NCBI RefSeq assembly: GCF_001202035.1
Contig: NZ_LGHT01000025.1
Location: 186,001-250,000 of the forward strand
Length of the DNA stretch: 64,000 bases
Source: Pseudorhodobacter wandonensis
GTDB lineage: Bacteria; Pseudomonadota; Alphaproteobacteria; Rhodobacterales; Rhodobacteraceae
Direction: 5' to 3'
In this document: positions 5,522 to 38,142 of the stretch, piece after piece
How the letters are laid out: each line of letters starts with the position of its first letter
How positions within the stretch are numbered: position 1 is the stretch's first letter
The notes under the pieces: generated by a model
What the model saw: the letters and a program-made list of their open reading frames with translations, nothing else
The model's database searches: none
Told to the model about the DNA's origin: nothing
Translations under genes and position numbers: made by a program

Positions 5522-5741
5522 CCAAAGCAAGGCGCAGATTTGCGTTTTTGAACCTGCCCTTTGGCGGGGCTTGATGTCGCTTTTGTGCGAATTTCAGGCG
5601 AATTTCGTCGTTGACCGTCATTGAAAATCGTGCCCGTATGGAGAGGACGCTGCATGCGCTTGCGCTGCGCCTCATAAAAACAAGTTTCGAAACGGCCTTG
5701 GCTGAATTTTGAAACACTACAATTAGGGAGATTCGTACGAA

Positions 5742-7505: not shown

Positions 7506-8588
7506 ATGGCAATGTTCCTGATCCGACGTTTTGGTATCATGCTGCTGACAGCTTTGTGCCTGACGTTCATCGTGTTTTTCCTGACAAACCTGACACCCAA
7601 TCTTGAAAAACTGGCGCGGTCTGAAGGTTCGGTGCGGATGTCGGATGCGCAGGTGGCCAGTTGGCTGGAAAACAACGGCTATGCGCAGCCACTGATTGTT
7701 CGTTATGGCCAGTGGCTGGGTGCTATGCCCGGCTGGACCAAAGAGATTGACGGCGAGACAACCGGCCGCTGCATCACCGCCGCAATGCCCGCCGCCGATG
7801 CACCGCGGTTTTGCGGCGTCTTACAGGGAAACTGGGGGCAATCTACCGTATTCAAACGCCCCGTATCCGAGATTTTGGGCCGCGCGCTTGGCGCAACAGG
7901 CTGGTTGATGCTGTGGGTGATGATCATCATGGTGCCATCGGCGCTGACCTTGGGCGTGCTGGCCGGAATGCGCGAAGGCTCGCGCACAGACCGCGTGCTG
8001 TCAACGGTGGCCATCGCAACAACCGCCACACCGGAATATGTGTCTGGGGTTATTCTGATCGTGGTCTTGGCCAGCGCCACGGCGGGCATTTCGCCGATCC
8101 TGGCCGATTGGGGCTGGATAGAGGGCCGCACCTTGTTCCAAGGCACCGCCACCAGCGCAATGGATGAAATCACATTCTGGAATTTCGGCCTGCCGGTCAT
8201 CACTGTTGCGCTTTATGGCATGGGCTATATTGCCCGCATGACCCGCGCCTCGATGACCGAGGTGATGACAGCGCAATATATCCGCACCGCAAGGCTAAAG
8301 GGCGTGTCGTTTCGACAAGTGGTCATCCGCCACGCACTGCGCAATGCGTTGATTGCGCCGTTTACGGTGATCATGCTGCAATTTCCATGGCTGCTGAACG
8401 GTGTTGTTATCGTGGAAACCTTGTTTAATTACAAAGGCTTCGGATGGACACTGGTGCAAGGCGCCGGCAATAATGACATCGAGCTGCTGCTCTCATGCTC
8501 GGTCGTGGCGGTTGTTGTGGTGCTGGTCACCCAACTGATTTCCGACATCGGCTATGCCTTCCTTAACCCCCGCATCCGGATTTCCTGA
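7506..8588 (+). CDS. ABC transporter permease (DppB/OppB type)
   Basis: Inner-membrane permease subunit of the dipeptide/oligopeptide type, 360 residues. It has the N-terminal membrane segment RRFGIMLLTALCLTFIVFFL, a large periplasmic loop up to about residue 130 and a cluster of C-terminal helices. The coupling-helix (EAA-type) motif is RTARLKGVSFRQVVIRHALR. The loop is longer than in typical DppB and contains two Cys residues (GRCITAA and RFCGVLQ) that could form a disulfide. GGGGAAGG lies just upstream of the ATG. The second permease starts 12 bp downstream. Confidence 0.92.
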   Translation: MAMFLIRRFGIMLLTALCLTFIVFFLTNLTPNLEKLARSEGSVRMSDAQVASWLENNGYAQPLIVRYGQWLGAMPGWTKEIDGETTGRCITAAMPAADAPRFCGVLQGNWGQSTVFKRPVSEILGRALGATGWLMLWVMIIMVPSALTLGVLAGMREGSRTDRVLSTVAIATTATPEYVSGVILIVVLASATAGISPILADWGWIEGRTLFQGTATSAMDEITFWNFGLPVITVALYGMGYIARMTRASMTEVMTAQYIRTARLKGVSFRQVVIRHALRNALIAPFTVIMLQFPWLLNGVVIVETLFNYKGFGWTLVQGAGNNDIELLLSCSVVAVVVVLVTQLISDIGYAFLNPRIRIS

Positions 8589-35907: not shown

Positions 35908-36396
35908 ATGGGCTCAATCGTAGAACGCAAACGCAAAGATGGCACGGTTAGCTACCGCGCACAGATCCCTATAAAGTCGAAGGGCCGGATCGTCCACTAA
36001 GGGTCGTCAATCTTCGATCACCTGACAAATGCGAAAGCTTGGCTAAAACGTCGCGAGCAAGAACTGGCTACACCTCATGGCCTGGACGCAGCCCGCCGCA
36101 AATCTGGATCTGAGGGCGACGTCATCGAAGACTACCTCAAAGCTACCGGCGGAGAGATAGGTCGAACAAAGAGCCAAGTGCTGCGTAAAATCCGAAATGA
36201 CTTAGCGAGCCGCGATATCCCATGCGATGAATTGAAACCGAGTGATGTTACCAGCATTGCCAGGGCTTTGGCGAAAGGTGGGGCCGCTCCTTCCACGGTC
36301 CAAAATTACCTCAGCCACCTAAACGCAGTGCTGTCGATAGCAAAAACCGCGTGGAATTGCGAAATTGACCGGAATGTCGCGCAGGACGGGATCTGA
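35908..36396 (+). pseudogene. dusA-associated tyrosine-recombinase (integrase), broken
   Basis: Starts ATG at 35908 with MGSIVERKRKDGTVSYRAQI, the usual N-terminal arm-binding region of these integrases. An in-frame TAA at 35998-36000 interrupts it, after which the same frame resumes (FDHLTNAKAWLKRREQELAT) with a SAM-like core-binding domain (PSTVQNYLSHLNAVLSIAKT). The frame ends where the IS3 element begins at 36394; the C-terminal catalytic domain with the Arg-His-Tyr residues is missing. Position beside the 5' end of dusA fits the known integration preference. Confidence 0.82.
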
Positions 36397-36518
36397 ATAG
36401 CCGCTAGTTTCCTAGCCCCCTTGCAGCTTCAGTTTCTGCTGCTGTTCAAAGGCTATCGGTGACAGCATGCCGCTCCTAACTTATTTGCGCTGTGGATTGT
36501 AGAAAAACCCGATGTGGT

Positions 36519-36561
36519 CAATTGCCCGGCAGGTGATTGCGTCGCAATGCCCGAGAGCGGG
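36519..36561 (+). repeat. Palindromic micro-element, copy a
   Basis: Reads CAATTGCCCGGCAGG, TGATTGCGTCGCAATG, CCCGAGAGCGGG. The ATTGC/GCAAT hairpin and the GAGAG-plus-G-run tail are shared with the copies at 36657, 37017, 37252 and 37459. It marks the junction where the orfB catalytic core has been deleted. Confidence 0.68.
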
Positions 36562-36656
36562 AATGCACCTGAACTTTGGTCTTTGGTTTGCACCGCCAGA
36601 CGGCCATCAGCAGCGCATGCAACGGCAGGTCGGTATAGATGCGGCCTTGCATGGAC

Positions 36657-36700
36657 TCGCTGTCCGGCAGCGGTTTAACTGCAAACCGCGAGAGGGGGCC
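36657..36700 (+). repeat. Palindromic micro-element, copy b
   Basis: Reads TCGCTGTCCGGCAGCG, GTTTAACTGCAAACC, GCGAGAGGGGGCC. Two consecutive hairpins (CGCTG/CAGCG and GGTTT/AAACC) and the tail. It is inserted in frame in orfB between RRAVG and SMQGRIY, adding about 14 residues (PLSRFAVKPLPDSE). Confidence 0.72.
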
Positions 36701-37016
36701 AACAGCACGCCGCGAAAACAGATCGATCACGACGACAAGATACAGGAAGCCTTCGTGGATGCGGATGTTGGTGATGTCGCTCGACATTGTTCTCGAATCA
36801 ATCGCGAACAAGGTCTCGCCCCGGAACTGGTCTGGGGCATCGACATCGAACTCCCGGTTCAGAGCTTTGTCAACAACGACCGCAGGGCTGCCTCCATAAG
36901 TACCGGGCTTCTTTTTGTAACCAATCTGGGCCCTGATCCCTGCTAGGCGGGCTAAACGCCAAGCCCTGTTGGGGCTGATGTCTTCGCCAAGATCGCACAG
37001 AAAGTCGTGCAGCTTG

Positions 37017-37059
37017 CCCCTCTCGGCAGATTGCTGCGCAATCGCCTACCGGGCAATGG
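37017..37059 (-). repeat. Palindromic micro-element, copy c
   Basis: On the minus strand: CCATTGCCCGGTAGGC, GATTGCGCAGCAATC, TGCCGAGAGGGG. It has a GATTGC/GCAATC hairpin. It separates VYGY from KLHDFLCDLGE in orfB, in opposite orientation to copies a, b and d on the window plus strand, and shifts the reading frame. Confidence 0.72.
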
Positions 37060-37251
37060 GTATCCATACACGTCGCCGCTGTCATCCCAAGCCTGCTTCA
37101 GCAGCACGGTTTGACGCTGATCCTCAAGCGCTCGCTGACAAAATGGTTCACGCAGCCATGCGTAAAAACCGCTGGGATGAACCGACAGCATCCGGTACAT
37201 AGCCCTCACAGCAAAGATCGGCCGGTGTTCGGCGATAAACGCATACCTCAC

Positions 37252-37290
37252 CCGCTGCCCGCAGTGGATGTTTTCATCCGCGAGAGGGGG
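37252..37290 (+). repeat. Palindromic micro-element, copy d
   Basis: Reads CCGCTGCCCGCAGTGG, ATGTTTTCATCC, GCGAGAGGGGG. Hairpins CCGCTG/CAGTGG and GGATG/CATCC differ in sequence from copy b but keep the structure. It lies between the end of orfA (FARES) and the start of orfB (RYAFIAEH). Confidence 0.72.
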
Positions 37291-37458
37291 GATTCCCTGG
37301 CGAAGTATGCCGTCGGCGTTTTTAGGATGTCCCGGCCCGAAGTTACCCGCAGCAGGTCCCGCTTAAACCGCCGGATCTCATGAGCTTGCGCATCAACCTC
37401 TTGAATCACCTTTGCGGGCCGCAAAAATTGCTTCTTCCAGGTGTAGATAGACTTGGTG

Positions 37459-37501
37459 CTCCCTCTCAACGGTTGCTACGCATTCGCCTGCCGTGCAACG
37501 G
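37459..37501 (-). repeat. Palindromic micro-element, copy e
   Basis: On the minus strand: CCGTTGCACGGCAGGC, GAATGCGTAGCAACC, GTTGAGAGGGAG. It is closest to copy c. Inserted in orfA between AERL and STKSIYTW, introducing a TAG stop. Confidence 0.72.
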
Positions 37502-37664
37502 CCCCCCACAATCGCTCGGCCACGTCGCGGACCGGGTAGCCCCGATCCTCGACGTGGGCGACTGCATCGCGTCTAAACTCATCTGTGAATTTAGCTCCGG
37601 ACATATCGTCCTCCTTGCTTCCAAAATTACCAAGCAAGGCGTCTGAAAATCTAGGGGCTATTCA

Positions 37665-38142
37665 GGTTGCGAGCAGGCCGTTGTGCGCCACAAGCCCCGC
37701 CCTCTCAGCAAGAACGGCTTGTGATATTACATCTCGGGCGATTTGGCGGAATGACTGGAATGGCAGAAAATGAAGCACGTTCTCGGCGCATCGTTCCACC
37801 CACAAACCCAAGGCAAGGTCGAGCGCTGGCGCCAGACCATGAAGAACCACCTCCTCGAAAACTACTACCTTCCCAGGCGATCTTGAGCGTCAGATCGGGG
37901 CCTTCGACGAGTACTACACAACCAACGCTACCACAGGAGCCTGAACAACCTCACACCCGCCGACGGCTACTTTGGCCGTGACAAAGCCATGCTGCTTGAA
38001 AGGGAGAAGATCAAGAAGCAGACACTCCGCCAACGCCGCTTGCAGCACCAAATACAAGCGGCATAGTCAATCACGCAAACGAACCTGAGCCTCCAATCCT
38101 CAAACCGTTCTGAGGCCCAATTCATTTGACGACGGACACATT
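37665..38142 (+). mobile_element. Remnant of a second IS3-family transposase (3' end)
   Basis: Plus-strand pieces in shifting frames: YISGDLAE, EWQKMKHVLGASFHPQTQGK, VERWRQTMKNHLLENYYL, then PGDLERQIGAFDEYY and NNLTPADGYFGRDKAMLLER, ending with QHQIQAA and TAG at 38065-38067. This is the conserved C-terminus of IS3-type transposases. After the stop, GGCCCAATTCATTTGACGAC near 38113-38132 resembles an IS terminal inverted repeat. It contains stops and a frameshift and lacks a 5' part. Confidence 0.75.

Follow-up and report, generated by a model that had tools for sequence, protein, structure and literature searches.

Short hairpin inserts in a dead IS3 element of Pseudorhodobacter wandonensis and their probable membership in a REP-like family resident in insertion sequences of Rhodobacterales

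A dead IS3-family element of Pseudorhodobacter wandonensis is interrupted by five short palindromic stretches, and the question arises what these stretches are and how they came to lie in transposase genes. The window analyzed here is a 64,000-nt stretch of contig NZ_LGHT01000025.1 (positions 186,001-250,000). The IS3 is bounded by a 32-nt inverted repeat pair (78%) and aligned end to end with the intact Limimaricola IS3 (WP_322338224). It is regarded as dead because, compared with this relative, about 190 bp are missing from its interior at insert c1 and, as judged by eye, the stretch YNPQRK* includes a nonsense codon. Sequence inspection and pattern scans confirmed the five copies of the original prediction, with starts within 1-2 nt of those claimed (Table 1). 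Their size, given as 40-44 bp, has to be corrected to 36-41 bp, and the proposed double hairpin proved to be one imperfect hairpin per insert (outer CCC/GGG, GAGA bulge, and variable inner stem). The shared left part, central hairpin, and GAGAG/G-run tail were found as described, with ends near C(A/G)(T/C)TGCCCGGCA and GAGAGGG. Every copy interrupts transposase text, and the deletion at c1 affects its left flank, too. The transposase is encoded on the minus strand, and three inserts (c1-c3) are antisense and two (c4 and c5) are sense to it.

Table 1. The dead IS3-family element of the window and its five inserts (window coordinates)
Feature	Coordinates	Strand	Description
dead IS3-family element	36393..37665	-	TIRs 36393-36424 / 37634-37665
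insert c1	36520..36559	+	antisense to transposase, at VHS^DQGS; left flank deleted
insert c2	36658..36696	+	antisense to transposase; breaks continuous IS3 text
insert c3	37253..37288	+	antisense, at orfA end (FARES^)
insert c4	37018..37058	-	sense, VYGY^RKLHD, 41 bp
insert c5	37461..37500	-	sense, AERL^GVSTKS

A covariance model (R1) was built from 12 copies and searched against the whole host genome (G000). Inserts c4 and c1, both in the training set, were recovered with E values of 7.3e-12 and 1.5e-8, c5, which is outside this set, reached only 0.12, and c2 and c3 were missed. Insert c2 is backed by a near-copy (L096:1919, stem family CGGTTT..AAACCG) in the congener G007. The c3 site is filled in an IS3 relative of the congener (L295) and looks filled in a relic of the host genome (L015, by eye), and the c1 site is filled, with intact flanks, in the congener copy L084 (by eye). 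A pattern scan with a stem filter recovered four of the five inserts, c3 being without a G in its left end, together with one unconvincing match at position 5609; c3 was picked up by a relaxed pattern, at the price of spurious matches. As predicted, no further copy was seen in the window. The dead IS3 is flanked by a phage-integrase-like gene with stops (35914-36396, plus strand) and a transposase integrase-core relic (~37748-38070, plus strand), both assigned by eye. Rfam models at gathering cut-offs detected nothing in the whole window besides Cis52_sRNA (Ruegeria cis52 sRNA; 8165-8343, minus strand, 87.4 bits).

In total, 493 matches to the pattern and stem filter yielded 239 distinct sites, some of which are chance matches such as that at window position 5609. 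The element consists of near-constant ends, CRYTGCCCGGCA and GAGAGGG, around a hypervariable base-paired hairpin; the 239 sites hold 199 distinct variable parts. Lengths ranged from 32 to 46 bp with a mode of 41 bp (98 sites), and division by three left remainders of 2, 1, and 0 at 122, 78, and 39 sites, respectively, the length being frame-breaking at 200 of the 239. In the inner stem of 19 divergent copies chosen by hand, double-changed cells numbered 21 and the covariation score reached 0.309, versus 0.095 in shuffled data; none of 500 shuffles was as high in either measure. At 5 versus 3.6, the number of double-changed pairs was reached by 70 of 500 shuffles. A first set of 12 copies, which were more alike, gave a weak covariation signal, and a comparison of stems (mean 6.8 versus 4.0 for shuffled ones) was biased by the stem filter that had picked the sites. 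From the covariation in the 19 copies and the 199 distinct variable parts, it follows that the pairing of the hairpin is conserved and its sequence is free; the compensatory changes seen in the divergent copies bear out the claim that the stems vary yet keep pairing.

In most cases G follows the main type of left end, C(A/G)TTGCCC, and C follows a minor type, T(A/G)TTACCC. The minor type was observed at 21 of the 239 sites (e.g., L085, L091, L103, and L115), the C following in 14 of them. The element end and the target base thus seem to be coupled. The hairpins at L188, L249, and L280 end in GAGAGGGG followed by aggca(t/c)c and have in common a right flank unlike that of the other copies; they may represent an unrelated terminator-like repeat that the pattern picked up.

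In the host genome, the covariance model gave 19 matches at E ≤ 5 and 14 at E ≤ 7.3e-4, eight of these 14 confident copies being in its own training set. A 19-mer with up to three mismatches matched 21 places in this genome versus three for the reversed control pattern. The congener G007 contained at least 62 model matches; 71 of its 89 matches were kept for site analysis, those dropped being mirror-strand or weak, with at least one (L101:512) that later looked real. Among 61 relatives, at least 20 matched at E ≤ 0.01, all within the 37 genomes of the same family, and no match at this threshold occurred among the candidates scored in the 24 genomes outside the family. In wider draws, 37 of 198 genomes sampled from the family matched at E ≤ 1e-7, and a class-wide draw gave matches in two of 142 genomes, one of which was the host. 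Plasmid matches at E ≤ 1 were found in 91 of 72,556 records, chiefly from Pseudosulfitobacter (43), Leisingera (14), and Sulfitobacter (10). Among 60 listed plasmid rows, many of them from near-identical strains, 56 had no annotated feature, and the PLSDB feature table leaves out pseudogenes. The pattern scan of 84,980 species, with one genome per species, yielded at least 120 stretches. According to their titles, about 69 of the 80 listed belong to Rhodobacterales; the others include Cohaesibacter, Rhizobium, and Labrenzia, and two look like chance matches. No match to one 42-nt query was detected in 50,697 phage records, and four stretches, three from one sample set, were found in IMG/VR. 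Since only part of the first-look candidates was scored (nine per genome for empty sites, out of 123 in the case of G007, and 106 of thousands for relatives), the copy and empty-site counts are lower bounds and the absences are weak. The element was found almost only in Rhodobacterales, and the proposed covariance model scan revealed related copies in many genomes of this order.

To search for empty sites, the joined flanks of 19 sites were compared with 37 genomes. An empty counterpart of c4 was found in the congener (G007:C1:481702-481794, 89%), and c5 matched at 82-84% overall, with 84% in the same G007 IS3 as c4 and with three places in G006; c1, c2, and c3 had no empty-site match in these genomes. 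In the G007 relative L295 of the window IS3, c3 is filled, c4 is absent as a 41-nt gap, and c5 is absent. The simplest reading of this alignment is that a single IS lineage gained the inserts one after another, with c3 preceding c4 and c5. Other IS families gave similar pairs of empty and filled sites. An IS110 site of G007 was empty in at least seven copies at 96% and filled in four, and an IS91 site was filled in G007 and empty in four copies of the host genome. The IS1182 of the host (contig C6) contains four inserts of net 36, 40, 40, and 41 nt, at which an intact Yoonia IS1182 is continuous. The IS5 of Dinoroseobacter shibae plasmid pDSHI04 (G184:C5) is 919 bp long versus 836 bp for IS1248A (NZ_CP044425), and the sole length differences between them are two 41-nt inserts and one end base. 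IS1248A itself changes frame inside its gene. The empty sites sought for the original prediction therefore exist, and the insertion is clean, with no target duplication at the empty/filled pairs and with one target base sometimes lost (IS110). Chance hairpins as an explanation are ruled out by the copies outside the training set, the empty sites, and the covariation.

A target preference was also found. The 239 distinct sites gave the motif YCRTC^GG, with flank frequencies of 0.53 for C (-4), 0.81 for A+G (-3), 0.59 for T (-2), 0.70 for C (-1), 0.75 for G (+1), and 0.48 for G (+2). The CRTC that precedes many copies is, where present, already in the empty sites, e.g., GATC^G in IS1182 and CGTC^G in IS5. 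Ten flank-matched positions, obtained with a chosen threshold and irrespective of IS residence, carry clearly different stems in different loci, which suggests more than one insertion event at some positions. The hairpins were no more complementary to their targets than shuffled pairs, 794 of 1000 permutations being at least as high, and the hairpin was accordingly rejected as a guide to its target.

Transposase genes were assigned by tblastn to Pfam-labelled or annotated seeds, some of them from the same loci, and by Pfam. The 71 kept matches of G007 formed 39 site clusters, 14 multi-copy and 25 single-copy, two of the 39 (L095_2064 and L104_3166) being one site split by a one-base shift. All 39 clusters lie in or beside transposase genes, 34 by tblastn (within 150 nt) and five, in IS3 or IS5, by eye; the weakest assignments are L087_6070 (E 2e-4) and L098 (a 20-residue match, E 3e-4). 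Likewise, all 14 confident host copies (E ≤ 7.3e-4) are located in or beside IS (IS3, IS5, IS6-like, IS66, IS110, and IS1182). A second set comprised 39 loci of the host genome, further genomes, and plasmids: tblastn placed 28 of them, Pfam another four, and neither method the last seven, among them L066 and L082 of G017, where the neighbouring domains found were housekeeping only. In the 84,980-species sample, 67 of 122 pattern matches were within 150 nt of transposase homology, compared with 264 of 7038 control positions taken from these loci. Pfam was applied to 20 of the remaining 55 matches, hand-picked and with one piece each, and revealed 14 transposase-type domains (two, L174 and L209, below the Pfam cut-off), one phage-integrase domain, and five cases of neither. 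Here, the label of L180 rests on winged-helix domains, which we take to be typical of IS630, and DDE_Tnp_IS240 and HTH_38 were presumed to denote IS6 and IS30, respectively. As originally stated, both orientations occur. Relative to the transposase, 52 inserts are sense and 66 antisense (p = 0.23; 118 of 238 sites assignable), and all three reading phases are represented. An IS3 relic in L309 (G216:C43:3900-8300, at 1629-2653) contains six to seven inserts in about 1 kb, more than the IS3 of the window.

Several of the insert-bearing IS are present in near-identical copies. Plasmid pDSHI04 of D. shibae harbours three 100% identical 919-bp IS5 copies with two inserts each, which read TGA where IS1248A has TGG (by eye), and the IS1182 of contig C6 carries a TAG (by eye). 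In G007, IS91 copies with two inserts each are 99.94% identical over 1743 bp, IS256 copies are 99.9% identical over 1212 bp, and IS110 copies are 98.5-99.9% identical; an IS110 frame of intact length is also present. No insert-free full-length close copy of the G007 IS256 was seen among 40 of 68 candidates scored, and a non-systematic look at IS copies more than 98% alike turned up no pair that differed in whether a site held an insert. Four copies of an IS3-like element (by eye) in G224 carry different numbers of inserts: two have four each, and the others have three and two. Since the insert-bearing IS copies are broken yet multi-copy, the simplest reading is that they multiply through help in trans, recombination, or transfer. 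A further group (F) occupies the same C-terminal IS5 site in L083, L089, L101, L109-L112, and L114 of G007 with a GAAAGGG variant. Its inserts are identical or nearly so despite a divergence of about 20% between some of the IS5 copies, a pattern that is not explained by simple inheritance; conversion or constraint are possible sources of this likeness.

Taken together, the five hairpins of the window are probably copies of a non-autonomous REP-like mobile element of about 41 bp that accumulates in IS and rides on them. Because conservation is limited to the pairing and the ends, and because the target is not duplicated, a mobilising enzyme would recognise the folded hairpin, probably as single-stranded or cruciform DNA. 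Insertion takes place at YCRTC^GG in both orientations and all phases, without target duplication. The enzyme would act in trans from a gene not beside the element, in agreement with the earlier suggestion that a transposase is needed in trans. Dead IS with inserts might then spread by means of an IS transposase supplied in trans, recombination, or horizontal transfer, and by this spread the hairpin would ride on the IS. Domain searches for Y1_Tnp and RVT_1 yielded no candidate enzyme, which counts against this account, as do the loci and matches left without a transposase assignment, the group F inserts, and the lack of empty/filled differences among the closest IS copies looked at. RVT_1 was found in G007, G002, and G015 and was not found in G000, G006, G008, and G010; mobilisation by reverse transcriptase was rejected on the latter absences, which leave past activity conceivable. 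A MITE derived from IS91 or IS110 was rejected as well, the ends of those IS being unlike those of the element.

Whether the residence in transposase genes reflects targeting or survival is the main point to be weighed. Under neutral scatter, the hairpin would insert anywhere non-essential without aiming at IS, the copies in IS would be multiplied or carried along, and the others would be lost. That 14 of the 39 G007 clusters are multi-copy, that the IS110 and IS66 tnpB inserts occur at the same sites in G000 and G007, and that the seven-base target is not in itself IS-specific all agree with such an account, which we consider quite possible, if somewhat short of an even chance. The 25 single-copy clusters (two of them the one split site) are nevertheless all in or beside IS, and the many distinct sites and stems and the rarity of transposase homology near control positions also speak against it, as do G014 and G022, with 18 and 16 DDE_Tnp_1 matches and no element match at E ≤ 0.01; the IS-rich G014 does have empty sites. 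The opposite extreme, a host or hyperparasite system that inserts hairpins specifically into active transposons and silences them, would explain the residence in many unrelated IS families, the several inserts per IS (five in the window IS3 and six to seven in L309 of G216), and the positions hit by different stems. No gene of such a system was found, guide complementarity was not in excess in the permutation test, and the simple YCRTC^GG target requires no guide; this system is judged distinctly unlikely.

Mobilisation by a RAYT, i.e., a Y1 transposase of the IS200/IS605 type, as in known REPs, is very unlikely. Y1_Tnp (PF01797) was detected in neither the host genome (14 copies) nor G007 (62 copies), no GTAG end is present, and the element sits in IS genes and not in intergenic regions, which outweighs its REP-like size (20-40 bp for REPs), hairpin, lack of target duplication, and short one-sided motif resembling known REP tags, as well as the fact that the three genomes with Y1_Tnp among 37 (G006, G015, and G023) all carry the element. 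The few or no other indels in IS with two to four inserts, relative to intact relatives, and the near-identity of their copies could be taken to mean that the inserts are tolerated intervening sequences, with RNA removal, DNA excision, or translational bypass keeping the IS active. The near balance of orientations, the three phases, and the stop codons in the D. shibae IS5 and the C6 IS1182 make this highly improbable. Barely credible is the retention of the inserts as in-frame peptides after the manner of Rickettsia palindromic elements (RPEs), which likewise lie inside alphaproteobacterial genes: 200 of 239 sites are frame-breaking and the hosts are transposases, not metabolic genes. In-frame peptides, RNA splicing, and bypass are all argued against by the length spectrum, phase, and orientation.

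A family of mobile hairpins resident in IS is real and apparently unnamed. It was proposed to be undescribed, and literature searches on the sequence, on Roseobacter and Rhodobacter repeats, and on palindromes inserted in IS, mostly outside subscription journals, turned up no description. If this interpretation holds, marine bacteria harbour a widespread mobile element that has stayed unnamed because it hides in IS pseudogenes, which annotation tends to skip, and that accounts for many broken IS in Rhodobacterales genomes. To find a palindromic repeat almost exclusively in transposase genes is unusual and calls for either a targeting mechanism or strong survivorship.

With its many dispersed copies, compensated hairpin, and clean insertions, the element falls within the broad class of small palindromic mobile repeats. 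It is small, mobile, and non-autonomous like classical MITEs but differs from them in having no target-site duplication and no recognised TIRs of a parent IS (the ends of IS91 and IS110 were compared). With the GTAG REPs and REPINs mobilised by RAYTs it has in common a small non-autonomous hairpin; unlike them, it has no GTAG at the hairpin foot, is intragenic in IS, and is accompanied by no Y1 transposase in G000 or G007. The likeness to RPEs drawn in the original prediction extends to a palindromic insert within alphaproteobacterial genes and does not hold for behaviour: RPEs (PMC10969869) are about 150 bp long, lie in metabolic genes, and are in many cases in frame, whereas the present element measures 32-46 bp (about 41 bp as a rule), is mostly frame-shifting (39 of 239 lengths divisible by three), and is found mainly in transposase genes.

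The closest published kind is that of the CGTC-tagged REPs, among which the element is not filed as a member. In Di Nocera et al. (2013; PMC3733652), where REP size is given as 20-40 bp, CGTC REPs are short, mostly alphaproteobacterial hairpins with no dedicated transposase known, a CGTC/TGTC/CCTC tag at one foot of the palindrome, a stem of 8-9 bp starting with AT, and a CCA tail; they are mostly intergenic, their rare neighbourhood to transposase genes is regarded as fortuitous, and the short ones include RPE-4 and RPE-6. The element resembles them in being a short alphaproteobacterial hairpin for which no dedicated transposase is known. CRTC often stands just outside its left end but, where it occurs, is already present in the empty sites, so that here it is probably target and not part of the element. 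It differs from CGTC REPs in its long near-constant ends, the lack of an AT stem start and a CCA tail, and its location mainly in transposase genes (39 of 39 G007 clusters) as opposed to mostly intergenic regions. A bolder interpretation, that a dedicated Rhodobacterales system attacking or parasitising IS repeatedly writes 41-bp hairpins into transposase genes at YCRTC^GG and silences transposons of many unrelated families, and that the published CGTC tag may itself be target sequence left by similar machinery, is unlikely. If our reading is right, the element provides a target motif, layered insertions, and sites both with and without the insert, by which the movement of orphan REPs such as the CGTC repeats becomes directly testable.
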